NCBI GenBank assembly: GCA_003141275.1 | Contig: PLLM01000083.1 | Coordinates: forward strand, 1-39,368 | DNA length: 39,368 bases | Direction: 5' to 3' | Source: Phycisphaerales bacterium | GTDB lineage: Bacteria > Planctomycetota > Phycisphaerae > Sedimentisphaerales > Anaerobacaceae | Shown: piece after piece, positions 4,212-24,543 of the stretch | Layout: each line of letters starts with the position of its first letter | Position numbering within the stretch: the first letter of the stretch is position 1 | Program-made: the position numbers and the translations under genes | Notes under the pieces: model-generated | The model's input: the letters and a program-made list of their open reading frames with translations, nothing else | The model's database searches: none | Told to the model about the DNA's origin: nothing

Positions 4212-4628
4212 TTATAACTGTATATATTCCTTGGGTTTGAAGTTTGTCTCCATCGTCCAGGTGGTCGCTTTGCCGTGTTTGAGGCAGTAAACGACGAGGA
4301 CATCATAGCCCTCTTTATCGACCCATTCTTGCAAAAATGGGAAATCCTTTACGACCTGTTTTTTTAGCGACAGGTCTTCTATTTCTTCAACCGAGCCGGA
4401 AATGCGTATCTGACGTCCCTCCGCGGCATTGTAAAAGCACAACTCAGCGTTCTCATTTTTTGAAAGCTGTCTGTGCAGGTCTTTGTTTTCGCCTGTATTG
4501 AATATTATGCCATTTTCGTCGGCACGGTAGAGCATCATCATTCTGACGTGCGGCTTGTTGTCCTCAGCGGTGGCCAGCGCAAAGACAGGATTACTTCTCA
4601 TTAACTCGAAAACCTGTTCTTTTGTCAT
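4212..4628 (-). CDS. Pyridoxamine 5'-phosphate oxidase-like FMN-binding split-barrel protein
   Basis: This 138-residue protein resembles the general-stress/PNPOx-like split-barrel family. Signs are FELMRSNPVFALATAEDNKPHVRMM at the N-terminus (first strands of the barrel), FNTGENKDLHRQL, and ELCFYNAAEGRQIRISGSVEEI, the pattern seen in small flavin-binding homologues. The reading frame extends 27 codons further upstream, but the ATG at 4628 is chosen because AGGAGA lies 8 nt before it, and the extension has no ribosome site and no family similarity. Members bind FMN, F420 or haem; which one applies here cannot be read from the sequence. It lies 87 bp downstream of the small unknown gene and 41 bp before comEC on the same strand. 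A true PdxH role is unlikely given the short length. Confidence 0.82.
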   Translation of the reverse strand: MTKEQVFELMRSNPVFALATAEDNKPHVRMMMLYRADENGIIFNTGENKDLHRQLSKNENAELCFYNAAEGRQIRISGSVEEIEDLSLKKQVVKDFPFLQEWVDKEGYDVLVVYCLKHGKATTWTMETNFKPKEYIQL

Positions 4629-4715
4629 CACAATTATCTCCTGATTATATTTTTGTGATTTGTTCCTGTCCGCCCATATAGAAGCTGGGAACCATTGATT
4701 TTTCTGCAATTTAGT

Positions 4716-5111
4716 TTAGTTCGGCGTCTCACTAAGATTAAGAGGTAAGGAACTCATTATCTGATTATCAATGGCTAGGTCAATCCTATATCGCCCGTAC
4801 TTTTCAAGTTTGAGTCCTTGAATATTTAGAACGATATTAGTGGCCGTAGAATCCACTTTATCCCCAATACTTACATTTATATTGCCTTGTAGGTTAGGGC
4901 CTATTGATTTACCATCTTCATCAATTATACTGATCCTTACTGGATGGCTACCTTCCTCTATCTTTTGAAACCGTATTCTTGCCGCAACAGCACAAGCAGG
5001 GTGCACAGTAGGTACTTTCTTGGTGAGAATACTATCGAAAGCTCCTAAAATATTCAGCTTACCCTGTTGATCAGTTGCCGCGTCGCATAATAAAAAAGCT
5101 TCAATATTCAT
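4716..5111 (-). CDS. Conserved small protein of unknown function (DUF6941-like)
   Basis: The product is a 131-residue soluble protein with no signal peptide or membrane segment. Its opening, NIEAFLLCDAATDQQGKLNILGAFDSI, looks like an uncharacterised family I recall as DUF6941, whose members start with a similar 'LCD…GKL.ilG' pattern; I could not check this. The remainder alternates short beta strands (VRISIIDEDGKSI, NIVLNIQGLKL, YRIDLAIDN), suggesting a single beta sandwich. The ATG at 5111 is well supported by AGGAG about 6 nt upstream. It lies 45 bp downstream of serS and 87 bp before the flavin-binding protein, in the same minus-strand run. No function is proposed. Confidence 0.7.
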   Translation of the reverse strand: MNIEAFLLCDAATDQQGKLNILGAFDSILTKKVPTVHPACAVAARIRFQKIEEGSHPVRISIIDEDGKSIGPNLQGNINVSIGDKVDSTATNIVLNIQGLKLEKYGRYRIDLAIDNQIMSSLPLNLSETPN

Positions 5112-5156
5112 TTTTTCTCCTTTTTTGATACTATGTTTATCTGGTGCGATTTTGGT

Positions 5157-6584
5157 CTACTGTTTATGTTTCGCTATTTTTTCTTTGTCGCTCATATATG
5201 GCCTGAGGACTTTCGGTATTGTCACCGAGCCGTCGGCGTTCTGATAAAGCTCTAATATTGGTATCAAAATTCGCGGGCTTGCGATGACGGTGTTATTGAG
5301 CGTGTGGCAAAACAGGTTTTTCTTTGTCGCGGAGTCCTTATAACGCAGGTTCATTCGCCTGGCCTGAAACTCGTAAAACTTGCTCGCGCTGTGGGTTTCG
5401 CAGTAATTATTTCTCGAAGGCATCCACGCCTCGATATCATATTTTTTCGCCTGGCCTCTGCCGAGGTCGCCCGTGCAGACAACCACCACGCGGTAGGGCA
5501 CCTCCAGCGCACGCATCACCACCTCGGAATTACTCAGAATCTCCTCGTGGTATTTGTTGCTTTCCTCGACGCTGTTTTTGCAGATTACAACCTGCTCGAC
5601 TTTGTCGAACTGGTGAATCCTGTAAAGGCCGTATGTGTCTTTACCCGCAGCGCCGGCCTCGCGCCTGAAGCAGGTTGACATACCGGCGAACTTAATAGGC
5701 AGCTCTTTTTCTTCCAGTATCTCCTCCATACGATAGGCCGTCAGCGGTACCTCCGCGGTTCCAACAAAGTTTATCTTGCCCCCTGGGTCATCAAATATAC
5801 TAGACACCGTTGACTTATTTCGGATTGCCTCACCTTCCTTAAGGACTGGCTGCCCCTCCGCCATTAGGTATGTTTGGCTGGTAGAAGATGTCGTCACCTC
5901 TTCTTTCTTCTCAATGTTTGTTTCGTCTGGATACGTTCTGTACGTCTGCTCTTCCGAGCCGGGATAATATCCCGTTCCTCGCATTGCCTCATCCTTCATC
6001 AATAGCGGCACCGACATCGGCGTATAACCCCTCGCAATCATCACGTCCATTGCGAACTGCAGCACTGCCCAGTGCAGTCGGGCGCCGTCGCCCTTTAGGA
6101 AATAACTTCGTGACCCTGCTAATTTAACACCTCGTTCGATATCGATGATATCGAGTTCAACGCCCAATTGAACGTGGTCTTTGGGCTTGAAATCGAACTT
6201 GCGAACCTGTCCTTCTCTTCTCAGTTCGACGTTTTCTGTGTCGTCTTTGCCATATGGTACATCGTCATCGGCGGGTTGTGCCACTAACAGCATCAATCGT
6301 GCAAGTTCAGTTTCGCAGCCTAAGATTCCCTGATTTTGGACTTTTTCCTCTTCTTTCAAAATTGAAAGTTTTTCTAGTATAGTTGCTTTTTCAAGGCCTG
6401 ATGTTTTGGGAATTAATTTGCCGAGCCTATTTTTCTCTGTAGCAATATCTTGCAGTATTTGTTTGCCCTTTTTGATTGTATCATCGAGGCTTCGTAGACG
6501 GTCAATATCAACGTCAATTCTTTTATCCATTGCTGCTTTTTTGAATCGTTCTGGATTCTCTCTTATCAGTTTTATGTCAATCAT
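5157..6584 (-). CDS. serS: Seryl-tRNA synthetase with an internal insertion
   Basis: Seryl-tRNA synthetase (475 residues) charges tRNA-Ser in the cytoplasm. The N-terminal antiparallel coiled-coil tRNA-binding arm spans about 1-100 (MIDIKLIRENPERFKKA…). The class II core follows: FVGTAEVPLTAY (serine pocket, about 273-284), motif 2 FRREAGAAGKDTYGLYRIHQFDKVEQ (306-331, shown in two overlapping parts: FRREAGAAGKD and YRIHQFDKVEQ), and motif 3 near ILIPILELYQNADGSVTIPKVLRPY (about 440-463). Most bacterial enzymes are about 425 residues. The excess here is explained by about 50 extra residues at roughly 217-271, between MRGTGYYPGSEEQTYR and FVGTAEVPL. ATG at 6584 has GAGGA upstream. The gene follows the ketosynthase by 33 bp and is probably in the same transcript. 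Confidence 0.96.
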   Translation of the reverse strand: MIDIKLIRENPERFKKAAMDKRIDVDIDRLRSLDDTIKKGKQILQDIATEKNRLGKLIPKTSGLEKATILEKLSILKEEEKVQNQGILGCETELARLMLLVAQPADDDVPYGKDDTENVELRREGQVRKFDFKPKDHVQLGVELDIIDIERGVKLAGSRSYFLKGDGARLHWAVLQFAMDVMIARGYTPMSVPLLMKDEAMRGTGYYPGSEEQTYRTYPDETNIEKKEEVTTSSTSQTYLMAEGQPVLKEGEAIRNKSTVSSIFDDPGGKINFVGTAEVPLTAYRMEEILEEKELPIKFAGMSTCFRREAGAAGKDTYGLYRIHQFDKVEQVVICKNSVEESNKYHEEILSNSEVVMRALEVPYRVVVVCTGDLGRGQAKKYDIEAWMPSRNNYCETHSASKFYEFQARRMNLRYKDSATKKNLFCHTLNNTVIASPRILIPILELYQNADGSVTIPKVLRPYMSDKEKIAKHKQ

Positions 6585-6588: not shown

Positions 6589-6623
6589 TTCTGTCCTCAG
6601 TCATCCGTCTTCTGTCCTCAGTC
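6589..6623 (-). repeat. 21-bp-period direct duplication at the ketosynthase/serS junction
   Basis: A 14-bp word (plus strand TTCTGTCCTCAGTC) occurs at 6589-6602 and again at 6610-6623, a 21-bp period. On the minus strand the two copies read GACTGAGGACAGAA. One covers the ketosynthase stop codon region and the other supplies the GAGGA in front of serS. It looks like a small local duplication that copied the ribosome-binding region. Confidence 0.7.
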
Positions 6624-7940
6624 CTCATATTTTCTAACAATGACGACGTTATTTTGTCCGCCGAAGCCGAAGGATTCTTTCATCACTACATTGACCTGCA
6701 TTTTTCTCGGCGTGTTTGGGACATAATCCAAATCCAACTCCGGGTCGGGGTCGTTGTAATTTATTGTTGCGGGCACAATGCCGTCGCGTATTGCGAGAAC
6801 GCAGGTAATCAGCTCCGCTCCGCCTGCCGCGCCGATTAGGTGGCCCATCGAACTTTTGATGCTGCTGACGACTATCTGTTTTGCTCGTTCTTTGAATACG
6901 GCTTTAATCGCCTTTGTCTCTATCGAGTCGTTTTCCGCGGTGCTTGTGCCGTGCGCGTTGACGTAATTTACATCCTTATAAGTTATCCCAGCGTCCGAGA
7001 TAGCCGCTTCCATTGCCTGTGTGGCGCCGCGTCCTTCTTCGTGCATATCCGTTACACGGAACGCGTCCGAACTGCTGCCGTAGCCGATGATTTCCGCGAG
7101 TATCTTCGCCCCGCGTTTTTTCGCTGAAGTCAAGCTTTCCAGTATCACTATTGCCGCGCCTTCGCCTAAAACGAACCCGTCTCTGCTGGCGGTGAATGGT
7201 CTCGACGCGGTCTGCGGGCTGTCGTTTCTTTTTGATAGCGCGGTAAGCCGGTTGAAGCCGGTTTGTCCGAGGGGATGAATCATCGAATGTGCGCCGCCCG
7301 CAATCATAATATCCGCGTCGCCCCTGCGAATAATCATTGTCGCTTCGCCGATTGCCTGTGTGCTTGCCGCACAGGCGGTCAGGCAGCTTCGTATTGGCCC
7401 TCTTGCGCCGGTGAGCATCGACAAATGTGCTGCGGGCATATTCGCTTCCTGCTCCAGCTCGTGCATCGCCCTCATTTGTACCGCCGCGACGTCGGTCCAC
7501 TTTGTCCAGTCCATAACATTGGTCTGGTTGTCCCATCCGGCCGCGATTGCGCCGAAGAACGCCTCGTGATTCGCCGCTCCTTCGCCCGCGCCTAAGTAAA
7601 TTCCGATCCGTTTGCGGTCGATACCGTCGGCCGGGTTGTCGGTTTCGACGTTTATGCCCGCCTGCCTGCACGCCTGTACCGCGGCGCCGACGGCGAATTT
7701 GCTTCCCCGGTTGCCGTTTTTATGCGGGTTGGGATTTTTTACGAGCTTCGCGACGTCGTAATTTTTCACTTCTGCGCTGAACGTTGTCGGGAAGGTCGAG
7801 GCGTCGAAAATGGTTGTTTTTGCGACGCCGCTTTTGCCTGCCAGTAATGCCTGCCACGTTGTTTCAATATCGTGTCCCAGCGGGCAAACGATTCCCATCC
7901 CGGTAATTACGACACGCTCTTTTTTTACGTCTTGTATCAT
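6618..7940 (-). CDS. Beta-ketoacyl-ACP synthase (FabF-like), catalytically intact
   Basis: This 440-residue FabF-type condensing enzyme should extend ACP-bound acyl chains by decarboxylative Claisen condensation. All active-site residues are present: Cys190 in LTACAAS, His330 in NAHGTST, and Lys362 and His367 in KSSMGHLIGAAGG. The thiolase fold is complete from RVVITGMGIVCPLG to FGFGGQNNVVIV. The ATG at 7940 is chosen over an in-frame start at 8015 because homology begins there and it lies only 4 bp past the stop of the upstream partner gene; the intergenic space lacks a strong ribosome site, which suggests translational coupling. The coupled partner at 7945-9261 is a degenerate ketosynthase, as in KS/chain-length-factor pairs. 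It could be the housekeeping FabF, but the pairing argues for a specialised synthase. Confidence 0.92.
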   Translation of the reverse strand: MIQDVKKERVVITGMGIVCPLGHDIETTWQALLAGKSGVAKTTIFDASTFPTTFSAEVKNYDVAKLVKNPNPHKNGNRGSKFAVGAAVQACRQAGINVETDNPADGIDRKRIGIYLGAGEGAANHEAFFGAIAAGWDNQTNVMDWTKWTDVAAVQMRAMHELEQEANMPAAHLSMLTGARGPIRSCLTACAASTQAIGEATMIIRRGDADIMIAGGAHSMIHPLGQTGFNRLTALSKRNDSPQTASRPFTASRDGFVLGEGAAIVILESLTSAKKRGAKILAEIIGYGSSSDAFRVTDMHEEGRGATQAMEAAISDAGITYKDVNYVNAHGTSTAENDSIETKAIKAVFKERAKQIVVSSIKSSMGHLIGAAGGAELITCVLAIRDGIVPATINYNDPDPELDLDYVPNTPRKMQVNVVMKESFGFGGQNNVVIVRKYED

Positions 7941-7944: not shown

Positions 7945-9261
7945 TTAATTCTCAAATTTCTTGAGTATAACAGCGGCGGTTTGTCCGCCGTAGGTGTAGC
8001 CGCAGCACAGGGCATAGCGAATATTCGCTTTTTGTGCCGTTGTTACGATGTTGAGATTGCAGCCGACGGTTTTTTTAACGCAGTTTTTCGCTGCCGGTAT
8101 AATGCCATCCCTCATCGCTAAAACCGCCGCGACAACATCCAGCCCTCCGCACGCGGCGCCGGTGTTGCTGAGCATACTCTTCGTGGGCCATACGGGTATT
8201 CGTTTCGTCTCTTCGCCGATTGCTGCTTCTATTCCTTTCGCCTCGGCGAGGTCATCCTGCGGAATCCCTGTGCCGTGCGGGATTATCAAATCGATATCTT
8301 TTGGTGAGACGTTTGCCTGTGCGAGCGATTTTTCAATTGCGATGGTCAATCCATATCCGTCCGGCTCGATATGCTCATACACCGGGTTAATACAGGCGCT
8401 TTGACCTGTGCCGACAACTTCCGCGTAAATTTTTGCGCCGCGTTTGGTCGCGTTGTCGAGATTCTCAAGCACTACAATTCCGCCTCCGTCGCCAAATATT
8501 GAGCCGCTGGCGTCTGAGTCAAAAGGTCTGCATGCTCCTTCGGCGTCGTCATTATGCTGATTCGTAGTTCGTTTAATCAGGCACTGCCGCATTATCAATA
8601 CCGGGTTTACCTTCGATTCTGCGCCGCCTGCCAGTGCAATGTCACTATTGCCCCGTGCGATGACCTCTGTCGCCTCGGCTATCGCGATATGCCCCGAAAC
8701 CTCCGCGCAGGTGATTGTGTTGCTCGGCCCCTGTATGTCGTGAATGATACCGACGTGGCAGGCCAGCATATTCGGTAAATACTTCAGCAGCCACAGGGGC
8801 GTTACTAATTCGATTCCCTCTTTGCCCCATTTTTGAATGTCGAATTTGCCCTCGGCCATACTTTTGGCGACCGCGGGTGCAAGTTCACAGGGGTCGCAAC
8901 TGATAAGCCCCGCGCCGAGATTGATTGCCATACGCTGCGGGTTGACGTTTATTTTTTGTTCGTCGATGGCTTTTGTAATGAGGCCGCTATCCCTGACCGC
9001 CTCATCCGCCGCGATTACCGCAAGCTCGATATCCTTTGACATCATCTTGGTCGCCTTGCGGAATGACTTTGGGACATACTGCTGGATTTTGTATTCCTCG
9101 ACTTCGCCGGCTAATTGGCAGGTGAATTTCGCAGGGTCAAATTTTGTTATCCGTTTTATGCCGGATTTGCCCGCGCAAAGTCCCTCCCACGTCCGGGCCG
9201 CCGTCAGTCCCAGCGAGCTTACCGCCCCAATTCCTGTTATCACCACACGGGTCCGTCCCAC
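7945..9261 (-). CDS. Ketosynthase-like protein lacking the active-site Cys (chain-length-factor-like)
   Basis: This 438-residue protein has the full FabF fold (RVVITGIGAVSSLG at the N-terminus, CGYTYGGQTAAVILKKF at the end). Ungapped alignment from the conserved Gly-Pro (178-179) to the EAT of the following helix places Glu187 (TCAEVSGH) where FabF and the neighbouring ketosynthase have the nucleophilic Cys. A Cys lies two residues earlier but out of register. The second catalytic His aligns with Asn366 (KSMLSNTGAACGG); the first His is kept (His329, PHGTG). Known chain-length factors of type II polyketide and aryl-polyene synthases likewise lose the Cys and dimerise with an active KS. It lies 12 bp after the dehydratase and 4 bp before the intact KS. 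A decarboxylase role (KSQ-like) is an alternative, though that usually keeps both His. Confidence 0.85.
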   Translation of the reverse strand: MGRTRVVITGIGAVSSLGLTAARTWEGLCAGKSGIKRITKFDPAKFTCQLAGEVEEYKIQQYVPKSFRKATKMMSKDIELAVIAADEAVRDSGLITKAIDEQKINVNPQRMAINLGAGLISCDPCELAPAVAKSMAEGKFDIQKWGKEGIELVTPLWLLKYLPNMLACHVGIIHDIQGPSNTITCAEVSGHIAIAEATEVIARGNSDIALAGGAESKVNPVLIMRQCLIKRTTNQHNDDAEGACRPFDSDASGSIFGDGGGIVVLENLDNATKRGAKIYAEVVGTGQSACINPVYEHIEPDGYGLTIAIEKSLAQANVSPKDIDLIIPHGTGIPQDDLAEAKGIEAAIGEETKRIPVWPTKSMLSNTGAACGGLDVVAAVLAMRDGIIPAAKNCVKKTVGCNLNIVTTAQKANIRYALCCGYTYGGQTAAVILKKFEN

Positions 9262-9273: not shown

Positions 9274-9753
9274 CTATTTGCCTGCCTTTTGGAAAACTGC
9301 TCCCTGCAGAAGCGATTTGAACATATCGGTGAACACAAAGTTCTCCTTCGGAAATTCCTTGCCCGCAAGGTTCTGGTCGATGTGACTGAACATCAGGTCG
9401 ATGTCGGCTATCAGTTTGTCGTCGCAGGTGATTGTCCCGGTGGTACTGGCGGCCTCCGGTGCTATCGATTCGATTTTGGCAGACAATCTAAGTGTATCGC
9501 CCGGCCTGACGTAATCGTGAAATACCGCCTTTTTTATCTTCGCCAAAATTACCTTTTCCTGGAAATTTTTCGCCTCGCCCACCAGTATCCCGGCTGTCTG
9601 CGCCATCGCTTCTATCATCAGGCATTCAGGCATAATCGGAAACCCCGGAAAATGGTCATGCAAATGCTCCTCGGCCAGCGTTACGTTCTTAATCGCAACG
9701 GCGTTTTGCCCGCTGTTAAACTCAACAAACTTATCTATCCAAATCCAACGCAT
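9274..9753 (-). CDS. FabZ-like 3-hydroxyacyl-ACP dehydratase (first copy)
   Basis: The product is a 159-residue single hot-dog-fold protein. FabZ enzymes dehydrate 3-hydroxyacyl-ACP to trans-2-enoyl-ACP in the cytoplasm. The catalytic His sits in LHDHFPGFPIMPE and the catalytic Glu in LMIEAMAQTAG, in the normal spacing; the Gly after Pro in the usual 'MPGV' is Glu here. The C-terminus extends about 15 residues beyond a typical FabZ (…KSLLQGAVFQKAGK). It is the first gene of the minus-strand run and lies 12 bp before the ketosynthase-like partner. No ribosome-binding site precedes the ATG at 9753, whereas a good promoter lies so close that the transcript would begin at or next to the start codon. 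Confidence 0.9.
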   Translation of the reverse strand: MRWIWIDKFVEFNSGQNAVAIKNVTLAEEHLHDHFPGFPIMPECLMIEAMAQTAGILVGEAKNFQEKVILAKIKKAVFHDYVRPGDTLRLSAKIESIAPEAASTTGTITCDDKLIADIDLMFSHIDQNLAGKEFPKENFVFTDMFKSLLQGAVFQKAGK

Positions 9754-10118: not shown

Positions 10119-12653
10119 ATGAAAAGAACAGCATTAATCATTTCAGCTTTGTCATTAATGGTTATTTCCACTGACGCCTTCGCAAGCAAGTTTGTCACTT
10201 TAAAAGTTATCGACCAGAACTACATTATGGTCCAGTTCAAAGACGGGGATGCATGTTTTTGGGACTCTACGCAAGGCATAGGAGCCCCATATGCCTATAC
10301 AGATCAGAAGTTCTCAGGTTGGGATTGGGTGGTAAATTACACAAGCGCACTTGACACAACAAATGCCACAACACCAGCTAACTGGGTCATAACATCAACC
10401 AATGACGCGCATTACGGCTCACCCGGCCTGAATCCGACAAACTGCTATCGTAAATCAAAACTCAATGGTGCGTCTGAAAGTACCACCTGGAGCAACGGTG
10501 ACTGGATTTATACATATACCATGGAGCACACCATTTATTTGAAATTACCCGCTTCACTTACGCAGGGAAACAGCTACACCCTTACAATCAATTCAAATAC
10601 AAATTCTGATACACTTAGCCAAAGTATTACTTTCGATATCTTCAACAGCCCGTCAGAAGCGGTGCATGTAAACCTGGTTGGATATCTTAACGATGCCAGC
10701 ACAAAAGCCGTCGATTTATATATGTGGATGGGAGACGGCGGCGCGCGTGACTACTCAAGTTTTGTTGGTAAAAAGGTTTACATATATAATGTGAATACAA
10801 CCGCCACTCAGCAGGTTGGAACCGTCGCCCTTTGGAAAAACAACCCTTCGGGCTCCAGCAGTGATGTGGGATGGTTCAACCTCACGATGTCGAATGTCTG
10901 GAGCGCAGATTTTACCGGATTTAATACGCCGGGGACATACCGTATCGCGATAGATGGCATCGGCTGCAGTGAAAACTTCGAGATAAAAAAAGATGTTTAT
11001 TTTGAGCCATACAGGGTCAGCACGCTCGGCTTTTTTTATATGCGCATCGGAGAGGATTCAAATTATACCGGAATGCCTGTTCCGCGTCGGCCTCTTTTTA
11101 TTCCCGGTGTATCACCATCAAGTACAAAGGTTTATATAACCAATCGCACAGGCAGCGAAGATTGGGATACTCCATCCACCTGGGACCCATATAAAACGGG
11201 CGCCCAGAATAACAACGCCTATGGCGGCCATTCCGATGCAACGGACTGGGACAGAAACCTCGGACATATTTCAATTATTTACGATATGCTGCTGCCCTAT
11301 ATTCTTACCGACGGCAGATTGAACGACGACAACCTCCAAATCGCCGAAAGCGGCAACGGCATTCCTGATATTCTGGATGAGGCGAGAAACGAAGTCGATT
11401 TCTGGCTTAACTTACGCGACCCAAACGGCGGATATAGTTACGGACTTACTAACCCTACCAGCGAAACCACCCCGATTCTTTACCAGGCAGGATCCACAGC
11501 AATGGCGGCATGGGCAAGTGCCGCAAATGCTTCAATGCTGGCCAATTGTTTTATGCTTACAGGACCGAATGATTTGAAAGACACGTACACAAATGCCGCG
11601 ATTACAGCTTACAATTATGCCTCCGGATTGTCTGACCAGCAACTGACAGTAATACGGGATGCAGGTTATGCTGAGCTTAGAGGCAAAGACCTGAAAATGA
11701 TGGCCGCGGCTTTTCTCTACAACCTGACAGGAGATACCACTTATGAAGACACGCTCAATTCCTTATGCGATATAACATCAAATACGTCGGTGGTAAATGA
11801 TTCCACCAGGAACCAGCTTTGGGCATGTGTCGGTTATCTCAAAACCAAACGCACTGTTCATTATCCCACGTTATTCAGCAGGATGAAGGCATCCATTATT
11901 AATGAAGCGAAAAATCATGAATCGAATAATTGTAATACGCGGCCTTCTCGCAGGGCCACAGACAATGACTCGGTTTTAAACCCAGGATACTTTAAAACCA
12001 CACAGAACGTCCAAAGGTGTATAGTTGCCCATGCGGTTGCTGACAGCAATTCGGATAAAACATTATTCGAAAACGCCATGGTCCTTGAAGCCGACTGGGG
12101 GCTTGGACGCAATTCCATGAATAGGATTATAATGACTACCGCCTGTACTAACCTGGCAAGCAAGCGCAGCATTGAAAATATGTACACTACGGGCAGAAAT
12201 GACGGCTACCCCGGTATGCATCCGGGACATACACCCTATTTGAATACCGACGACTGGGATTCTTCGAGTACAGGTATGACCGGGAATAAGCCGAGCAGGT
12301 TGACTGCTCTATGTTACCCTGCTTACGGGACAACCACTACCGGCTGGCCGAAAGCGGAAGGTTATTTCAATGATAGATATGTATGGGCCCATTCGGAATT
12401 TACACCCCAGCAAAGCATGCGGGGCAAAATGGCCCTGTATGCCTATTTATACGGTCTATATAAACTTCCTGCCGATTTCGATGGCGATTCAGACGTGGAC
12501 ATAATGGACGCTGCTGCCTTTTTCGATTCCTGGTTAAAAGTCCCTGGAAATACGGGCTACGATTCACGTGCGAACCTTTACGCGGATTCGTCCGGCATAG
12601 TGAACTTCTATGATTTTGCTGTCTTCGCAAATCAATGGAAACCAGTGCCGTAG
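10119..12653 (+). CDS. Secreted GH9 glycoside hydrolase (endoglucanase-like) with dockerin-like tail
   Basis: This 844-residue exported enzyme probably hydrolyses beta-1,4-glucans. Order: signal peptide 1-22 (MKRTALIISA…TDAFA); an unassigned beta-rich region about 23-175; a CelD_N-like Ig domain about 180-290 (VHVNLVGYLND … GTYRIAIDG); a GH9 (alpha/alpha)6 barrel about 300-780; and a dockerin-like tail 786-844. The catalytic base motif is GGHSDATD (Asp373, Asp376), followed by ESGNGIPDILDEARNEVDF. The late motifs are DWGLGRN (659-665) and GRNDGYPGMHPGH (692-704), and the proton donor is probably Glu760 in WAHSEF. The tail has one clear calcium-loop-like repeat, DFDGDSDVDIMD, and a degenerate second, ADSSGIVNFYDF. 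The gene is on the strand opposite the synthase genes on both sides and has its own promoter. The exact substrate (cellulose, xyloglucan, mixed glucan) cannot be told. Confidence 0.93.
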   Translation: MKRTALIISALSLMVISTDAFASKFVTLKVIDQNYIMVQFKDGDACFWDSTQGIGAPYAYTDQKFSGWDWVVNYTSALDTTNATTPANWVITSTNDAHYGSPGLNPTNCYRKSKLNGASESTTWSNGDWIYTYTMEHTIYLKLPASLTQGNSYTLTINSNTNSDTLSQSITFDIFNSPSEAVHVNLVGYLNDASTKAVDLYMWMGDGGARDYSSFVGKKVYIYNVNTTATQQVGTVALWKNNPSGSSSDVGWFNLTMSNVWSADFTGFNTPGTYRIAIDGIGCSENFEIKKDVYFEPYRVSTLGFFYMRIGEDSNYTGMPVPRRPLFIPGVSPSSTKVYITNRTGSEDWDTPSTWDPYKTGAQNNNAYGGHSDATDWDRNLGHISIIYDMLLPYILTDGRLNDDNLQIAESGNGIPDILDEARNEVDFWLNLRDPNGGYSYGLTNPTSETTPILYQAGSTAMAAWASAANASMLANCFMLTGPNDLKDTYTNAAITAYNYASGLSDQQLTVIRDAGYAELRGKDLKMMAAAFLYNLTGDTTYEDTLNSLCDITSNTSVVNDSTRNQLWACVGYLKTKRTVHYPTLFSRMKASIINEAKNHESNNCNTRPSRRATDNDSVLNPGYFKTTQNVQRCIVAHAVADSNSDKTLFENAMVLEADWGLGRNSMNRIIMTTACTNLASKRSIENMYTTGRNDGYPGMHPGHTPYLNTDDWDSSSTGMTGNKPSRLTALCYPAYGTTTTGWPKAEGYFNDRYVWAHSEFTPQQSMRGKMALYAYLYGLYKLPADFDGDSDVDIMDAAAFFDSWLKVPGNTGYDSRANLYADSSGIVNFYDFAVFANQWKPVP

Positions 12654-12827: not shown

Positions 12828-12844
12828 GCCCCGCAAGGCGGGGC
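12828..12844 (-). terminator. GC-rich hairpin overlapping the ACP stop codon
   Basis: A perfect 7-bp stem (12828-12834 with 12838-12844) with a 3-nt loop starts at the last base of the ACP stop codon. It has the position of a transcript end for the ACP gene but lacks a following T-tract on the minus strand, so termination may be weak or factor-dependent. Confidence 0.45.
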
Positions 12845-13236
12845 TACGCCTTCAGCTTGCTCTCCACGTAATTTACTATCATCCCCACCGTGAACAAGTC
12901 GGGCAATTTGCTCAGTTCGGGGTTTTTGGCGAATTCGCTTACGTCGGTATGCGGCATTTTGGCCTTAAGTTCAGCCACACCCTTTGCGGTCAGTTTGCCG
13001 TTGCTTACAAACTCCGGGTTGTTCATCAGCGTTTCAGCCGGGAACAATTCTTCTCTGGCGATTTTTATACCGAATGCCTTTTCCAGCCGGAACACTATAT
13101 CGAGGAAATCGATGCTCTCGGCGCCCAAATCACCCATAAGTGTCGCTTCCTGCGTTACCTCGTCATCATCTACGCCAAGGGCATCCACCATCACCGTCTT
13201 AACCTGCTCAAAAACCTGTTCCCGATTCATCGCCAT
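12844..13236 (-). CDS. Acyl carrier protein with an internal insertion
   Basis: This 130-residue ACP carries the growing acyl chain on phosphopantetheine. The attachment serine is Ser41 in DLGAESIDFLDIVFRLEKAFGIKI, matching the usual 'LGADSLD' helix II pattern with Glu-Ser-Ile. Ordinary ACPs have about 80 residues. Here about 45 extra residues (roughly 68-112, PAETLMNNPEF … ELSKLPDL) separate helix II/III from the final helix FTVGMIVNYVESKL. The ATG at 13236 has GGAG 10 nt upstream; a second Met two codons on is possible. It lies 66 bp downstream of the second dehydratase on the same strand. This pairing and the nearby KS/KS-like pair suggest a dedicated carrier protein rather than the housekeeping one. 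Whether it is modified by the cell's general phosphopantetheinyl transferase is unknown. Confidence 0.9.
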   Translation of the reverse strand: MAMNREQVFEQVKTVMVDALGVDDDEVTQEATLMGDLGAESIDFLDIVFRLEKAFGIKIAREELFPAETLMNNPEFVSNGKLTAKGVAELKAKMPHTDVSEFAKNPELSKLPDLFTVGMIVNYVESKLKA

Positions 13237-13302
13237 GTCGTTTTCACTCCATACACTGACTTACACGGTTTTTTTAGCTTTTTCCTTTTTGCTTTTTGAT
13301 TT

Positions 13303-13770
13303 TTACTTTTTTAATAGTTCCCAGCGTTTTTTCATTTCGCTGATTACCTTCGCGTCAACCGAGGCCATAGCTGAATCCTGCTCAGCGAGGTTGAAATGTC
13401 GCAAGCCGAATCTTGCTTCGACTATCTGTTCGCCGTTTGATAGGCCTGTACCGGAAAAACTACTGACGTTTTCTTCAATGGTCTTGACCTCAACCGAGTA
13501 TTCAATCTGTGCCCCAGGCGCCAGGAAGGACTTATATTTAACATTTCTAGCCTCTTCCAGCAAGACCATACTATGCGCAAAATTCTCCGTCACCCGAACC
13601 AGCCATGATGCCGACTCAATCAGTCCTTCTAAAAGCAATACCCCTGGCAGCACCGGAAAGGTCGGAAAATGGTCGGCCAGATATTCCTCGGCCAATGTTA
13701 CGCCTTTGACCGCCTTTATCCGTTTGCCCGGCTCTATCTCAATAATTTTGTCTATAAGTATGAATCTCAT
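13303..13770 (-). CDS. FabZ-like 3-hydroxyacyl-ACP dehydratase (second, diverged copy)
   Basis: This 155-residue hot-dog protein is related to the copy at 9274-9753 (both open MR-I-IDK and share VTLAEE-L-DHFP-FP). The His is in LADHFPTFPVLPG and the Glu in LLLEGLIES, so both catalytic residues remain, but the usual 'EAMAQ' helix has changed to EGLIES, hinting at a different substrate or a structural role. The pairing of one canonical and one diverged dehydratase recalls polyene-type synthases. The ATG at 13770 has no properly spaced ribosome site (AGGA abuts the ATG). A 25-codon ORF with a good site ends 2 bp upstream, so translation is probably coupled. It begins a two-gene minus-strand unit with the ACP. 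Confidence 0.85.
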   Translation of the reverse strand: MRFILIDKIIEIEPGKRIKAVKGVTLAEEYLADHFPTFPVLPGVLLLEGLIESASWLVRVTENFAHSMVLLEEARNVKYKSFLAPGAQIEYSVEVKTIEENVSSFSGTGLSNGEQIVEARFGLRHFNLAEQDSAMASVDAKVISEMKKRWELLKK

Positions 13771-13772
13771 TC

Positions 13773-13850
13773 CTATACGCTATCCGCTAAACGTTCTACA
13801 CTATTTGTTGTTGCGGCAATTGTAGTCATCCGGCTGGATTTTTCCAGCAT
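13773..13850 (-). CDS. Possible 25-codon upstream ORF coupled to the second dehydratase
   Basis: The ORF encodes 25 residues beginning MLEKSSRMTTIAATTN and ending LADSV. Its ATG at 13850 has GGAG 6 nt upstream, better than the site of the following gene, and its TAG ends 2 bp before the dehydratase ATG. A terminator on the same strand lies just upstream. This arrangement fits a leader peptide or coupling ORF, but no homology is recognised and it could be chance. Confidence 0.35.
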   Translation of the reverse strand: MLEKSSRMTTIAATTNSVERLADSV

Positions 13851-16048: not shown

Positions 16049-16525
16049 ATGAATAAATCAGAAATTAGGTTGTTTCAAAAAAATCCTGAGAATCAAGCAG
16101 GGGGTTTTCCCGTGAGCGGTTACCGGTCTGCAACCGGGATGACTATGCAGAAAAAAGCCGCTTGCCGACGAGGGTCGGCGGTTGTCGAAACAGCGATAGT
16201 CATTGGAGTGCTGGCGTCACTCATCTTCGGTGGATTGGATTTTGCTTATCAGTTTCACGTGCGTTACGTTATGAACGGTGCGGCACGGGATGCTGTCCGT
16301 TATCTGGCGGTTAAAAATGGAACGCAAGATCAGGCGAGAGCTGCGGCCGTGGAACGATTGAAGGTCATCAATGCCACTTTCACGGTGACTTTCCCGACAC
16401 CGACTTACAACACGGATGTCACGGTTCAAATCAGTGTGCCTCGGAAAACGATTTCGCTGGGCTTATTCCCAGGTTCGCCTGGCGACAACATCACAGTCAA
16501 GGCCACGATGCGACAAGAAGTTTGA
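16049..16525 (+). CDS. tadE: TadE-like minor pseudopilin
   Basis: This 158-residue protein has the TadE pattern: RRGSAVVETAIVIGVLASLIFGGLDFAY (41-68), with Glu47 at about +5 after a Gly/Ser processing region, one hydrophobic segment (about 46-67), and then a short periplasmic domain (NGAARDAVRYLAV … VTVQISVPRKT). TadE-family pseudopilins are processed by the Tad prepilin peptidase and are needed for pilus assembly. The 40-residue stretch before the hydrophobic segment is longer than usual; Met31 is an alternative start that would leave a normal short leader. The gene follows a good promoter and precedes tadG by 30 bp. Confidence 0.82.
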   Translation: MNKSEIRLFQKNPENQAGGFPVSGYRSATGMTMQKKAACRRGSAVVETAIVIGVLASLIFGGLDFAYQFHVRYVMNGAARDAVRYLAVKNGTQDQARAAAVERLKVINATFTVTFPTPTYNTDVTVQISVPRKTISLGLFPGSPGDNITVKATMRQEV

Positions 16526-16555
16526 AAAATCATATTCACGACAGGAGACGATGCG

Positions 16556-17992
16556 ATGACTACCAAAATAGATGTTCGCCGTAAGGGTGTGGTATTCGTA
16601 TTTGTTGCGATGGTGCTTGTTTGCGTGATAGGCATTATAGCATTGGCTTTGGATATTGGATATTTATACAACGTGAAAGCAGATCTTCAGGTCGCGGCGG
16701 ACGCCGCTGCACTGGCCGGGGCCGGCGGCTTGAGCACTGACCAGGATACGGCTCGTGCCCGGGCGATTGCTATTGCGAAGGGAAATTACGCCAACGGCAT
16801 GCCAGTGGTTCTCCAGAATTCCGATATACAACTGGGACTGTGGGATTCGGTGACAGGAGTATTTACGCCGGTTATTTCTCCGACCGACAGGGCCAATGCC
16901 GTCAAAGTTTATGCCAAGCTCACCGGCGTGAATACCATTTTCGCCGGCGTCCTCGGAATCAAATCCGTACCAGTAGTTGGCGCATCGTCGATCGCCGTCT
17001 TCGGCGCAAGGGATATCGTGCTTACGCTCGATTATTCAGGCTCTATGAGCTATGACAGTCAATTTATACATAAACCACAGATGACCCTGGCTGCGGTGGA
17101 AGGTTATCTCAATCAGAGTTGGCAGGATCTCAGCCCTCTTATGCAACATCCGGGGGATCGTCTATATGGTATTCGCCTGCTGCAAAACAAAATTTTAATC
17201 CCATCTTCCCAAAGTAATGCTCAGATTCTCAACACCCTGGGCCTCGGGAATGTCGCCTATCCCTACCCGTCGGGCAGTTGGAACGCATACATCACTTATG
17301 TCAAGACGGATAGCTATGTTAGCCAGGCTGGTTACCAAAACTATTATGGTTATCGGACCCTGCTCAATTATTGGCAATCCCAGCAGGAAATGGCAAGCCA
17401 AACCCCGGATCTTTGGCGAACTCATGAACAGCCAATCACGGCAGTTAAAGATGCTGTGACGCTTTTTCTTGCCTATATGAACGAGCTAAAAACGGACGAC
17501 CGGATAGGCTTGGCTTCGTACACCTACACAGACGGCTACGGGAAACTCGAAGTTCCATTGACGGATGGTACGAATAATTACCAGCTGATTGAAACCACTT
17601 CACGGCAGCGGCAGGCAGGTCACTATTTTGATACTACCAATATTGCCGGCGGTATGGAGAAAGCACTCACCGAATTGCGGACAAACGGCAGGCCCGGAGC
17701 TTTGAGAATGATTGTGCTTCTCACCGACGGGCAGGCGAATTATCCTAACCAATGGACAGCCAAGGATCTCGCTCGGGCCCAGGCCCAACTGGCAGCAAAT
17801 AATAATATTCCAATTATCACAATCTGCCTCGGCGCCGATGCGGATACGGACCTCATGCAGGATATCGCCGACATAACCAAAGGAGCTTGCTTCGTTATCC
17901 CCGGGGGCCATAGCGTGGACGAATATAAAAAACAATTGGATGATATTTTCGCCCGGATTGCGGAACGTCGGCCCCTCAAGCTGGTTAATTGA
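16556..17992 (+). CDS. tadG: TadG-like pilus protein with von Willebrand factor A domain
   Basis: The product has 478 residues. Residues 8-45 carry the TadG/Tad-N pattern RRKGVVFVFVAMVLVCVIGIIALALDIG with ADLQVAADAAALAGA, giving one membrane anchor and an extracytoplasmic body. From about 152 it has a VWA domain with the metal-ion-dependent adhesion site DYSGSMS (Asp159, Ser161, Ser163) and a later MIVLLTDGQANY. A long loop rich in Y, Q and S separates the first strand from the second half of the VWA domain. TadG proteins localise at the cell surface or inner membrane and support pilus function and adhesion. It follows tadE in the same transcript. A gap of 533 bp containing the flp control region follows. 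Confidence 0.88.
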   Translation: MTTKIDVRRKGVVFVFVAMVLVCVIGIIALALDIGYLYNVKADLQVAADAAALAGAGGLSTDQDTARARAIAIAKGNYANGMPVVLQNSDIQLGLWDSVTGVFTPVISPTDRANAVKVYAKLTGVNTIFAGVLGIKSVPVVGASSIAVFGARDIVLTLDYSGSMSYDSQFIHKPQMTLAAVEGYLNQSWQDLSPLMQHPGDRLYGIRLLQNKILIPSSQSNAQILNTLGLGNVAYPYPSGSWNAYITYVKTDSYVSQAGYQNYYGYRTLLNYWQSQQEMASQTPDLWRTHEQPITAVKDAVTLFLAYMNELKTDDRIGLASYTYTDGYGKLEVPLTDGTNNYQLIETTSRQRQAGHYFDTTNIAGGMEKALTELRTNGRPGALRMIVLLTDGQANYPNQWTAKDLARAQAQLAANNNIPIITICLGADADTDLMQDIADITKGACFVIPGGHSVDEYKKQLDDIFARIAERRPLKLVN

Positions 17993-18183
17993 TTGGCAGT
18001 TGGGGCGCCTTCAAAACTGGCAACGGGGCTATAAGCAACTAAGGCCGCGCCGACAAATAAAATCAAATGGCCAATATTAAAATATCCCAGAGTTAATATT
18101 TCCACAATACTATATGTATTACAGAATAATTTGAAAAAGACAAGATATGTTCGGCGGCTTCAACATTTTATCGCCATAATACC

Positions 18184-18205
18184 TGCTTTGCCGGCCGGCC
18201 AAGCA
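18184..18205. repeat. Near-perfect 22-bp palindrome in the tadG-flp gap
   Basis: The arms TGCTT and AAGCA flank a CCGGCCGG core, with one mismatched pair on each side. No T-run follows. It may form the 3' end hairpin of the tadE-tadG message or be a protein-binding palindrome. Confidence 0.45.
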
Positions 18206-18218
18206 GATTGTTATAACA

Positions 18219-18264
18219 CCTTACTATATAACGACTTACAGCCTTATCATATAACGACTTACAG
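18219..18264 (+). repeat. Two tandem 23-bp repeats upstream of the flp promoter
   Basis: 18219-18241 and 18242-18264 are adjacent copies differing at only two neighbouring positions. Both contain ATATAACGACTTACAG. The block lies about 57-102 bp before the predicted flp transcription start, a typical place for activator binding sites or an AT-rich UP-like element. Confidence 0.8.
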
Positions 18265-18285
18265 TAAAAAAAATTAATAATATAT

Positions 18286-18314
18286 TTGACAAAGCTAATC
18301 CTATGTATTATAAT
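18286..18314 (+). promoter_or_regulatory. Perfect-consensus sigma-70 promoter for flp
   Basis: TTGACA (18286-18291), exactly 17 bp, TATAAT (18309-18314). This is a full match to the housekeeping consensus and fits the high demand for major pilin. The predicted start near 18321 leaves a leader of about 205 nt before flp. Confidence 0.88.
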
Positions 18315-18455
18315 CAATAATCAGTAATCGAGTCAGGAAATAGGGATAGGGAGCTCCACTAAATAAAGCTATGGATTGCGAAATGATGCTCTTAATTGTA
18401 CCAGGTAGCTATAAGAGAATCATAAAGTATATTGCTATCAATAGAAATGCGTATA

Positions 18456-18481
18456 AACGGTAAGGAAAGGACCTTGCCGTT
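18456..18481 (+). promoter_or_regulatory. Stem-loop in the flp 5' leader
   Basis: A 10-bp stem (18456-18465 with 18472-18481, one G-U) with a 6-nt loop ends 32 nt before the flp ribosome-binding site. It lacks a T-tract and could stabilise the mRNA or control translation. The rest of 17993-18525 shows no convincing gene. Confidence 0.5.
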
Positions 18482-18525
18482 AAAAATGTCAAAGAAGTAT
18501 TAAAAAATTTTGTGGAGGTTTAGAG

Positions 18526-18687
18526 ATGGAACAGGTAAAAAGATTCATTAGAGACGAGCAGGGCCTTGAGACAGTCGAGTATGCGGTTATTCTCGGGCTT
18601 ATCGTTGTGGCCACAATCACCGTGATCGCCACGTTAAGTAACGCGGTACAAGCCAAATTCACAACGGTTTCGAATGCGCTTAAGTAG
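18526..18687 (+). CDS. flp: Flp-type major pilin
   Basis: A 53-residue pilin precursor. The leader MEQVKRFIRDEQG ends in Gly13, and the mature protein starts LETVEYAVILGLIVVATITV, the diagnostic Flp pattern with Glu at +5 and Tyr at +6 followed by the hydrophobic polymerisation helix. After cleavage by the Tad prepilin peptidase a 40-residue subunit would assemble into the Tad pilus. GGAGG (18514-18518) lies 7 nt before the ATG, an excellent site. The strong promoter and long leader are its own, and the peptidase gene follows 43 bp downstream. Confidence 0.95.
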   Translation: MEQVKRFIRDEQGLETVEYAVILGLIVVATITVIATLSNAVQAKFTTVSNALK

Positions 18688-18730
18688 TAAGTAGCTTATT
18701 TGGTTAAAGGCGTCTTTTTGTGACAGGTGG

Positions 18731-19285
18731 ATGGAACCAACCTTAAAAGACATAATCCAGTGGGGCGTCGTAATCGGCGCCTCACTGATGGTTGCCATAA
18801 TGGATATCAGGACGCGACGGATACCTAATCTGTTATGCGGGCCATTGTTTGTGGCAGGGTTGGTTTGGTCTGCCTGGCACGGCGGCGCCTATGGTTTTGT
18901 AGAAGCGTTGGCAGCGGCAGCGTTGCTGGCGTTTCCGTTTGTGTTGTTGTTTATGCTGGCCGGTGGAGGAGCCGGTGACGCGAAGCTGACCGCTGCTATA
19001 GGCGCCTGGCTCAGTATAAGAGAGGCCGGTATTGCCCTTGCGTGTATATGTATCGCAGGCGGTATTCTCGGAATTATAGTTGCTATTTATAAAAGACGCC
19101 TTAAAATTGTCTTCGCCAGAATGACGCTGCCTCTATGGGATTGGATTATAGCGTTGTTATACCATGTAGGTATTAAACAAGCGATAGAATCCACACGGGC
19201 GATAGAAGGTGAAAAATTGACGGTGCCTTATGGTGTGGCCATATTCGTTGGTGTTTGTGTTGCCGGGGGGATAGTCCTGATATGA
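18731..19285 (+). CDS. cpaA: Tad prepilin peptidase (TadV/CpaA)
   Basis: This 184-residue polytopic aspartic protease has only the A24 catalytic core, as expected for TadV/CpaA. The first catalytic Asp is Asp25 (MDIRTRRIPN) and the second is Asp83 in the GxGD-type motif GGGAGDAKLTAAIGAWL. It should cleave the Flp pilin and the TadE-like pseudopilin. ATG at 18731 follows CAGGTGG closely, so initiation may be modest. It is the second gene of the flp unit; cpaB follows after 94 bp containing a weak hairpin (AACCAAA at 19298 with TTTGGTT at 19317). Confidence 0.92.
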   Translation: MEPTLKDIIQWGVVIGASLMVAIMDIRTRRIPNLLCGPLFVAGLVWSAWHGGAYGFVEALAAAALLAFPFVLLFMLAGGGAGDAKLTAAIGAWLSIREAGIALACICIAGGILGIIVAIYKRRLKIVFARMTLPLWDWIIALLYHVGIKQAIESTRAIEGEKLTVPYGVAIFVGVCVAGGIVLI

Positions 19286-19379
19286 AAAATATAAAAAAAC
19301 CAAATAGTTATACCGCTTTGGTTACAATGACCTAATAGAATAATGGAATAAAATATTCTGCTGAAAGGACAAGTAACGC

Positions 19380-20267
19380 ATGAGATGGGCGATTGTGGTT
19401 CTGATTATCCTTGGGATTCTTGCGGCGTTTTCGGCCTCTTTGCTGGTCAAAGCGCTGCGGTCAGAAAACGAAATGGGCGGCAAAGGAGAAACCAATGCCG
19501 TCATCGCGGCCAAGTCGCTTCCGGCTATGTCCCAGATAACATCGCAGAATATTACTATTAAGAAGGTGCCCAGAAAAGGGCTGTTTGACAATTACTTTTC
19601 CGAGCCGGTCCAGGTAGTCGGAAAGGTATTAGCTGTTCCGGTAATTGAGGGCCAGGTTATATCGAAGAGCTTCCTTATTGGCGAGGGCACCGGCGCCCAG
19701 TTGGCCGCGGTCCTGCAGCCCGGTATGCGGGCCGTTAGCGTTCCTGTCTCAGCAAATTCCATAATGGGCGGCCTGCTGTATCCCGGCTGCCTCGTGGATG
19801 TTATCGCCACCTTCAAATTGCGCTATCAGGATGAACGGGGCCAGGCGATTTCCACAACGCTTCTGCACGGCGTCCAGGTCCTGGCGATTCAGGATGAGTC
19901 CATTGTTTCAAAAATAGACCCCTCGTCCAGGAGCGTCTCCCGCAGTTCGGATGGCCAGGTGACTGTTACGCTTATGGTTGATACCAGGCAGGCCGAGGCA
20001 CTGCAGCTTGCTATGGATAGCGGAAAAATATCGCTCGCTATGCGAAATCCGCTGGACCAGAAAACAGTGGATACCGAAGGTATGGTTTTAAGCCAGGGAC
20101 GTCTCTCAAGTGTAACTGATCCCGCTGCCAAGAGCGAAGAGCAGCTTAATCGCCTCTTCGGCGGCGGAGCCGGTGGAAGAGGTTCGCAATGGCAAATGAC
20201 TGTAATAAGAGGAAGAGAGGTCAAGGAGGAAGCCAGCGGGCTTCCAGTGACCGATGTTGTGCCCTAA
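19380..20267 (+). CDS. cpaB: Tad pilus assembly protein CpaB/RcpC
   Basis: The product is 295 residues. One N-terminal membrane segment (4-25) anchors a periplasmic protein. An SAF domain follows (AVIAAKSLPAMSQITSQNIT … VGKVLAVPVIEGQVI, about 40-95), then the RcpC-type domain (AAVLQPGMRAVSVPVSAN … LLYPGCLVDVIATF, about 109-145), typical of CpaB. CpaB is thought to work with the secretin at the outer membrane or periplasm. The tail from about 255 is Gly/Arg-rich and probably disordered. AAAGGA precedes the ATG. It is followed by the secretin after 52 bp. Confidence 0.9.
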   Translation: MRWAIVVLIILGILAAFSASLLVKALRSENEMGGKGETNAVIAAKSLPAMSQITSQNITIKKVPRKGLFDNYFSEPVQVVGKVLAVPVIEGQVISKSFLIGEGTGAQLAAVLQPGMRAVSVPVSANSIMGGLLYPGCLVDVIATFKLRYQDERGQAISTTLLHGVQVLAIQDESIVSKIDPSSRSVSRSSDGQVTVTLMVDTRQAEALQLAMDSGKISLAMRNPLDQKTVDTEGMVLSQGRLSSVTDPAAKSEEQLNRLFGGGAGGRGSQWQMTVIRGREVKEEASGLPVTDVVP

Positions 20268-20319
20268 GAAGAAACCGTCGCCCGTCGAAATGGACGAGGA
20301 GAGGATTTGAAGGTTAAAA

Positions 20320-21930: not shown

Positions 21931-21974
21931 AGCAAAGTGATTTACTGATAAAGGAAAGTGAGAGAGAAATTTTG

Positions 21975-23120
21975 ATGAAATCATTGCCGCAAATAGTGCT
22001 TACAACCGAAGAGGCCGGCTTTGCCGAGAAGTTCAAACAGGCGATGCATGCAAATCATAGCGATTCGCTTCTGGGCACCTGCATGGGTATGTCGGAACTG
22101 AAGACGTGTCTCGGAGACGCTAAAGCTTCCATTGCCATTGTGGATATCGACTCCGACCCTCCCAGGATGCTTCGTGAGCTTGACCAGCTTGTGCCCCTGT
22201 TTCCTTCAACAAGGTTTGCCGTGGCGTCGAGTGAGTCCAGCCAGAAGCTTATGCTTGAAGCTATGCAGGCCGGCGCCAGGCACTTTATGCACAAGAAATC
22301 CTTTGAACCGGAGCTCGACAGGATTCTGGAACGATTGCTCGTCGATGATACAAAGGTCGCATCAGCCCTCGGCCAGATAGTGACGGTTTTTTCAGCGAGC
22401 GGCGGCTGTGGCGCGACCACCGTATGCCTGAATCTGGCCAACGAGTTTCGGCTGGAATCAATGCAGCCGGTCCTGACTATTGATATGGATAGTTGCTATG
22501 GAGCCGTGTCCAGCTATCTCGGCATAACCGGCGGGTATAGCATCGACGACGTGCTCAAGCGGAATGACAGGATTGACAGTCAGTTTATCACGACAAGCGC
22601 CACAAAGTACAAAGACAACTTTGACGTATTGGTCAGCGCCACGGGCGCCTCCGATAACGGAAGCGACCGGTATCCGCATCTTGCTGATGCCCTTGAAGCA
22701 TGCAAAGGGGCATACAAATATACAATAATAGATGCGCCGAGATTGCCGGACCAGACGATGAGATTGCTCGCCAGCGCAAGTAAAGCCGTTCTATTGGTTT
22801 TTCAGGCCAATGTAAAAGACATCAAAATCGCCAAAACCATGCTTTCTGCGCTGCGGGAATTTAACGTCAGTTCCGACAAAATCTTTCCGCTTGTGAACAG
22901 GTTCAATCAATGGTGGGGACCATTGGTACCGCTCGAAGAGGTGAAAAAGGCGGTAGGAACAGAACATTTATACACGGTGCGCAATAATTTCAAAAAGGTA
23001 GTTAACTGCGTGAATCGCGGAAAGCCGTTGTCGGAATTGGCGCCGCGTTCGGGTATCCGCAGGGATTTTCAGAGATTAGTGAATAACCTTCACGGCCATA
23101 ACGGCAACGGCAAAAAATAG
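21975..23120 (+). CDS. cpaE: Tad localisation protein CpaE/TadZ (MinD-like ATPase)
   Basis: The product is 381 residues. Residues 1-125 form an atypical receiver-like domain (AIVDIDSDP, AMQAGARHFMHKKSF). Residues 135-380 form a ParA/MinD-like ATPase. The Walker A-like motif FSASGGCGATTVCLNLA lacks the signature Lys of the deviant Walker box, a feature known in several TadZ proteins, so hydrolysis may be poor. TIDMDSCYGAVSSYLGI and YTIIDAPRLP give the later switch regions. TadZ marks the polar or membrane site for pilus assembly. The ATG at 21975 is preferred to the TTG one codon earlier. It starts 44 bp after cpaC and ends 12 bp before the ATPase gene. Confidence 0.9.
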   Translation: MKSLPQIVLTTEEAGFAEKFKQAMHANHSDSLLGTCMGMSELKTCLGDAKASIAIVDIDSDPPRMLRELDQLVPLFPSTRFAVASSESSQKLMLEAMQAGARHFMHKKSFEPELDRILERLLVDDTKVASALGQIVTVFSASGGCGATTVCLNLANEFRLESMQPVLTIDMDSCYGAVSSYLGITGGYSIDDVLKRNDRIDSQFITTSATKYKDNFDVLVSATGASDNGSDRYPHLADALEACKGAYKYTIIDAPRLPDQTMRLLASASKAVLLVFQANVKDIKIAKTMLSALREFNVSSDKIFPLVNRFNQWWGPLVPLEEVKKAVGTEHLYTVRNNFKKVVNCVNRGKPLSELAPRSGIRRDFQRLVNNLHGHNGNGKK

Positions 23121-23132
23121 GGATGAAACATA

Positions 23133-24512: not shown

Positions 24513-24522
24513 AGGAGTAAAA

Positions 24523-24543
24523 CCGCATAAGGATTTTATGCGG
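24523..24543 (+). promoter_or_regulatory. Intercistronic hairpin between cpaF and tadB
   Basis: A perfect 8-bp stem (CCGCATAA/TTATGCGG) with a 5-nt loop lies in the 44-bp gap. The following bases are GCTTTAATAAATA with no solid T-run, so full termination is unlikely. tadB has no obvious ribosome site after it. It may set the ratio of ATPase to membrane platform proteins. Confidence 0.5.

Follow-up and report, generated by a model that had tools for sequence, protein, structure and literature searches.

Gene organization of the locus

The window analysed here is a single contig of 39,368 nucleotides from the draft genome (3.05 Mb) of a Phycisphaerales bacterium. On its minus strand it encodes two adjacent ketosynthase-fold proteins, designated KSbeta and KSalpha, together with two FabZ-like dehydratases (Z1 and Z2) and an acyl carrier protein (ACP), whose family carries its Ser site in the motif DLGAESID (Table 1). 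KSbeta begins with a GTG codon at 9261 and its stop codon ends at 7945; it lies upstream of KSalpha, which starts at 7940 after a gap of 4 bp. Both ketoacyl-synthase domains of Pfam were found in each protein, and in KSbeta PF00109 and PF02801 scored 121.1 and 71.7 bits against a cut-off of 20.8, which places it in the family. The NCBIfam FabF model TIGR03150 does not assign KSbeta to FabF (314.1 bits, curated cut-off 493.75), and the intact KSalpha, with 470.7 bits, likewise falls under this cut-off.

Table 1. Features of the window and their coordinates
Feature	Position	Strand	Description	Basis
KSalpha	6618..7940	minus	440-aa ketosynthase with intact site (Cys/His/Lys/His); Glu where FabF has Ile108	Pfam, alignment
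KSbeta	7945..9261	minus	Cys-less ketosynthase-fold subunit, 438 aa	Pfam, alignment, fold model
KSbeta Asn366	codon 8164-8166		Position of the second His	Alignment
KSbeta Glu187	codon 8701-8703		Nucleophile position	Alignment
KSbeta Trp157	codon 8791-8793		FabF Phe133 position	Alignment
Z2	9274..9753	minus	FabZ-like hot-dog dehydratase, motif DHFPGFPIMPECLMIEA	Pfam FabA domain, E 4.7e-18
CelD_N-domain gene	10119..12653	plus	Interrupts the operon, lying between ACP and Z2; outside the system	
ACP	12844..13236	minus	Acyl carrier protein of the operon	PF00550 match 13027-13209
Z1	13303..13770	minus	Second FabZ-like hot-dog dehydratase	PF07977 match 13414-13764

In relatives the genes follow the order Z1-ACP-Z2-KSbeta-KSalpha. 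In the window, Z2 adjoins the KSbeta-KSalpha pair, and ACP and Z1 lie past the opposite-strand CelD_N gene. The possibility that the window's operon has no ACP was rejected, as ACP and Z1 were found at 12844-13770, separated by another gene. The CelD_N gene is absent from locus L034, whose KSbeta is 95% identical; there ACP and Z2 are adjacent, and the counterparts of the window's ACP and Z1 occupy 5035-5430 and 4464-4973. The window's arrangement is probably a recent split of the operon in its genus. A comparable 3.3-kb gap separates Z1 and Z2 in locus L054.

Only three ketoacyl-synthase matches were found in the window's genome, namely KSbeta, KSalpha and one FabF on another contig, along with FabH and two more FabA/FabZ-type matches, one of which lies in a 455-aa frame. 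Elsewhere in the window, a 311-aa plus-strand ORF at 12890-13825 is the antisense shadow of the ACP and Z1 genes, positions 16049-27666 read as a Tad-type pilus-like set (TadE/G-like, prepilin peptidase, CpaB, secretin, CpaE, CpaF and TadB/C-like proteins), and 28642-30339 encodes a protein that combines a collagen-like GPQG region with repeat units bearing WTARDSSR-like segments. As a separate matter, the PLSDB record NZ_CP119140.1, a Neisseria gonorrhoeae "plasmid" of 2.17 Mb, looks like a misfiled chromosome.

Active-site residues and fold of KSbeta

A sequence-only reading of this DNA had placed Glu187 of KSbeta at the nucleophile position and Asn366 at that of the second His, with His329 kept, and had described the adjacent ketosynthase as intact and coupled at 4 bp. 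All of this was borne out. A gapless alignment of GPSNTITCAEVSG of KSbeta with GPSISIATACTSG of FabF sets Glu187 at the Cys position, and His329 and Lys361 are retained in the alignment with FabF and homologues; where FabF has its Cys-His-His active site, KSbeta thus has Glu187, His329 and Asn366. The reference used, E. coli FabF, aligns along its whole length with the family. The same reading took the Glu as unusual, which it is not: position 187 is Glu in all 75 order-level homologues, so that Glu is the family norm.

Cys185 was considered as a shifted nucleophile and discarded. It corresponds to a Thr of FabF and is replaced by Ser or Thr in some homologues, whereas Glu187 is fixed in 75/75, which argues that the substitution is not a matter of chance; its placement in the nucleophile elbow, named beforehand as an observation that would speak against a Cys-less subunit, finds no support in the sequence alignment. 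An AlphaFold2 model of KSbeta, built with 19 sequences (pLDDT 89.5, pTM 0.90), has strand 181-185 and helix 189-202 flanking residue 187, as expected of such an elbow. The model has the ketosynthase fold, its best matches among solved structures being FabF entries with Z 60-63. The actinorhodin KS gave Z 60.7 and the actinorhodin chain length factor (CLF) was not among the best 50 matches; with FabF and the actinorhodin KS at near-equal Z, structure comparison cannot separate FabF from CLF.

Prevalence and pairing with KSalpha

A profile (A1) built from 19 KSbeta sequences matched at E <= 1e-108 in 115 of 120 sampled genomes of the class Phycisphaerae (102 of the 105 of high quality). KSbeta is single-copy in all but one of the matching genomes, with no internal stop among the matches listed. 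Since the same profile scores KSalpha-type proteins of other classes at about 1e-98 to 1e-102, a cut at 1e-108 selects mainly KSbeta. In the class of genome G343, which holds Pirellulales-like genomes and for which Planctomycetia is an inferred name, the profile matched in 59/59 genomes at 1e-90, where the limit is loose enough to admit KSalpha too; among 30 loci read there, the KSbeta-type protein was Cys-less in 23 and Cys-bearing in 7.

Neighbours were counted around 136 distinct KSbeta-type genes, Cys-bearing PLWLL relatives included. KSalpha lies directly downstream in 106/126 testable loci, and upstream are found Z2 (102/127), ACP (51/67) and Z1 (49/65). Being near-universal in the class and usually encoded beside KSalpha, KSbeta is probably a built-in helper subunit. 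It is encoded apart from KSalpha in L117 and L119-L123 of Planctomycetia and in L109-L111 and L180 of Phycisphaerae, so in some genomes its partner may differ or it may act alone. At L119 (5576-6898, G343), a KSbeta paralogue with Glu/His/Lys/Asn sits beside frames that read as housekeeping plsX, fabD, acpP and fabF, and the Cys-less partner may therefore also serve the main fatty-acid synthase.

The operons of basal lineages also encode an SDR ketoreductase, a protein of the GH3 family, an alpha/beta hydrolase, a methyltransferase and a ferredoxin-like DUF362 protein. In the neighbour analysis of KSbeta loci, no tailoring gene proved to be shared across the class, and no GH3 was found in the window's genome. 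GH3-family proteins occur beside or near KSalpha in L103 and L104 (confirmed by Pfam) and in L085, L089 and L094 (by BLAST clustering), which suggests that in some lineages the product is activated or undergoes amide transfer.

Selection and residue variation

Against three congeners, dN/dS of the window's KSbeta was 0.043, 0.072 and 0.076, and that of KSalpha 0.077, 0.047 and 0.122. These ratios indicate that KSbeta is under purifying selection and constrained as much as the active KSalpha. The loss of catalytic residues could suggest a decaying, functionless paralogue, an idea that we give practically no credence and rejected on the dN/dS values of 0.04-0.08; a gene kept in 115/120 class genomes, with a conserved interface segment, does not fit it either.

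At the order level (n=75), the first His position (H1) of KSbeta is His in 64/75 and the Lys is kept in 74/75, and the second His position (H2) holds Asn in 56, His in 11, Thr in 7 and Ala in 1. Wider sampling shows exchange at the nucleophile position: Glu 39, Asp 19, Ser 2 and Asn 2 in the phylum set (n=62), and Glu 12, Asp 4 and Gln 4 in further families of the class (n=20). The four Gln-type sequences have lost both His and carry Pro/Arg/Asp or Gly/Arg/Glu at the other three positions (QPRD, QGRE). With conservative grouping, column entropy is 0.41 bit at the nucleophile against 1.94 and 1.81 at the two His. KSalpha is Cys-His-Lys-His throughout (69/69 at the order level, 54/54 in the phylum set and 19/19 further loci).

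Cys-to-Gln ketosynthases (KSQ, FabF C163Q) decarboxylate malonyl, and decarboxylation by ketosynthases requires both catalytic His. The Gln of some KSbeta, and the Asp of L104 with its His-Lys-His intact, might accordingly point to a malonyl-ACP decarboxylase that supplies an acetyl starter. However, the window's protein has Glu187 and Asn366 instead of a Gln nucleophile with both His intact, most family members have no His at H2, many have lost the one at H1, and all four Gln members are without both; FabH is moreover available for initiation in the window's genome. With the decarboxylating His lost, this role was rejected as a conserved function of KSbeta, and we hold it to be very improbable.

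The acidic side chain, nearly fixed while the His vary, could instead mean that KSbeta performs carboxylate chemistry of its own, for example by taking up a non-FASII acyl group on the ACP or cyclising it there. Activities beyond chain length have been proposed for Cys-less KS subunits (PMC10698177; PMC2649909), and the GH3, methyltransferase and DUF362 genes of basal operons would be in keeping with such a function. Nevertheless, H1, K and H2 are not conserved in KSbeta, with Phe, Ala, Met, Leu, Pro and others occurring there, and some lineages that retain these operon neighbours have Gln, Asn or Ser in place of the acid. These replacements suit a space-filling or hydrogen-bonding role better than acid-base catalysis, and we consider independent chemistry unlikely.

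Phylogeny and origin

In an IQ-TREE phylogeny of 97 rows, the 51 Cys-less KSbeta form one clade with support 100/100, apart from active FabF enzymes, which answers the check by tree that the sequence-only reading had proposed. Sister to this clade are 11 Cys-bearing ketosynthases of the same phylum (62-row node, 100/96), which share the segment PLWLLK[YH]LPNM. Four of them, of lineage f39, come from operons ordered Z1-ACP-Z2-KS-KS in which both subunits are Cys/His/Lys/His, and in the basal KSbeta of L104 an Asp for the Cys is the sole departure from the active site at the four compared positions. The outgroup ketosynthases all carry Cys, except the CLFs and one Ala-bearing KS, so presumably Cys is the ancestral state, and its single loss on the KSbeta stem preceded the Glu/Asp/Gln/Asn/Ser exchanges.

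FabF and the actinobacterial KS and CLF lie beyond a 100/98 branch from KSbeta. A forced clade of KSbeta and CLF was 26.2 log units worse (AU p = 0.036), a modest rejection. Tree and AU test, with two CLFs included, thus speak against common descent, and KSbeta probably arose independently of the actinobacterial chain length factors. Its origin may lie outside Planctomycetota, the phylum that the profile searches covered. A Gln nucleophile with both His lost arose within the KSbeta clade; in L171, L177, L182 and L187, where it is found, the state is convergent with actinobacterial chain length factors.

Acyl tunnel and proposed role

In FabF the acyl tunnel ends at Phe133, contributed by the partner subunit. 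At this position Trp was found in 62/62 KSbeta and in 16/16 Cys-bearing sister sequences, and mostly Arg or His in KSalpha. The invariant Trp157 of KSbeta belongs to the conserved segment PLWLLKYLPNM, a candidate interface segment. The position of FabF Ile108, a residue thought to steer the acyl chain (PMC4606726), is Glu in 45/45 KSalpha and mostly Leu in KSbeta, and KSalpha is conserved at the 134, 136, 137 and 138 positions as Glu, Glu, Gln and Glu/Asp. These subunit-specific residues imply differing tunnel walls, hydrophobic from KSbeta towards KSalpha and charged from KSalpha towards KSbeta. In KS-CLF pairs a channel at the interface sets chain length (reviewed in PMC12664062), and the differing walls would fit one working site per heterodimer, as in those pairs.

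A salt bridge between the Arg/His of KSalpha and the Glu of KSbeta was dropped. Charge complementarity at the interface fails in lineage f39, where KSalpha has Arg there but the partner still has Cys. The residues thus do not covary, and no salt bridge is claimed. In L105-L108 and L135-L139 the operon order is the same, both ketosynthases are Cys/His/Lys/His, and the Ile108 position of KSalpha is Lys instead of Glu.

The frequent pairing with KSalpha, the strong purifying selection, the lost decarboxylating His and the subunit-specific tunnel residues together best support KSbeta as an independently evolved, CLF-like partner whose Trp157 segment lines the acyl tunnel of KSalpha, and we consider this reading probable. 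KSalpha would load an acyl chain from the operon's own ACP through its Cys-His-Lys-His site and carry out decarboxylative condensation. Each beta-keto product would be processed by the two FabZ-like dehydratases and a ketoreductase, which is operon-encoded in basal lineages and presumably located elsewhere in the window's genome. No enoyl reductase was found among the recurrent neighbours in the sampled operons, and the likely product is therefore an acyl chain, unsaturated or partly reduced, that goes into a class-wide lipid. KSbeta, with a carboxylate at the nucleophile position, could not be acylated; its PLWLLKYLPNM segment would span the dimer interface, close the KSalpha tunnel and fix chain length.

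The carboxylate itself may both block acylation of the dead site and hold the elbow, and Gln occurs in some KSbeta lineages and in actinobacterial CLF, which suggests that a polar filler is enough. A stronger proposal is that the carboxylate is essential, chemically or structurally, in a second, primary-metabolism KS-CLF system that Planctomycetota invented independently for a lipid needed by nearly all Phycisphaerae; this is conceivable, although we incline against it.

Taken together, the data suggest a second origin of the KS-chain length factor arrangement, with a Cys-bearing ancestor, outside Actinobacteria and apparently in core lipid metabolism. The operon points to a near-universal acyl pathway in Phycisphaerae. 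Because living relatives hold Cys/His/Lys/His, Asp/His/Lys/His, Asn/Ser, Gln and Glu partners, the choice of a polar replacement for Cys becomes testable within one family, and, if the reading is correct, the Cys-bearing and Asp-only partners of the phylum would make it possible to replay how an active subunit became catalytically dead.

Comparison with known systems

The Cys-to-Glu/Asp substitution is not new, since Rattray and others tabulated it for paralogues of Rhodopirellula baltica. In the accessible text of that article, NP_866153 has Glu163/His298/Lys328/Asn333, the same residue combination as the window's KSbeta, NP_865682 has Asp163/His/Ile/His, the Kuenenia FabF paralogue Kuste3606 has Val163, and recruitment of non-FASII moieties by such paralogues is proposed; this text deals with single paralogues, and not with their conservation across a class, a KSalpha partner or a role like that of CLF (Rattray et al., 2009; PMC2649909). 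A literature search in which subscription journals were mostly uncovered found no report of the class-wide conservation, the KSalpha pairing or the Cys-bearing ancestry, and, by title and abstract, no paper on the KSbeta family among those on planctomycete ketosynthase heterodimers or chain length factors.

Some heterodimers join an active condensing subunit to one without catalytic residues or known motifs, and by their descriptions AmcF-AmcG (PMC10698177) and PqsBC (PMC4807248) are of this kind. AmcF-AmcG is the KS-CYF pair of cispentacin, with proposed chemistry beyond chain length; as described, AmcG is without recognisable motifs and some secondary structure, unlike KSbeta (PMC10698177), and PqsBC differs in being FabH-like (PMC4807248). 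The aryl polyene ApeO-ApeC system (PMC8358021) and highly reducing type II PKS also combine a KS, a partner, dehydratases and an ACP. ApeC, compared by its described size, is about half as long as the 438-aa KSbeta (PMC8358021), whose full-length modelled fold sets it apart from a shortened protein with a partial thiolase fold.

As to the earlier assignment of KSbeta as a chain-length factor, the Cys-less, CLF-like partner stood, and membership in the actinobacterial CLF lineage or likeness to the ApeC truncation did not. With the protein outside that lineage and the heterodimer putative, "chain-length factor" is best taken as a functional analogy. Like the actinobacterial CLF (actinorhodin, 1TQY_B), KSbeta is a Cys-less KS fold adjoining an intact KSalpha, with His lost and a polar replacement at the nucleophile. 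The two differ in their separate origin, in the Glu or Asp rather than Gln of most KSbeta (Gln in four related loci only, against Gln/Asp/Lys/Arg at the four catalytic positions of two aligned actinobacterial CLFs), in an operon with two dehydratases and an ACP, and in near-universal presence in a class. From FabF, with which it shares fold and overall sequence, KSbeta is distinguished by the missing catalytic Cys, the lost second His and a TIGR03150 score below the FabF cut-off.
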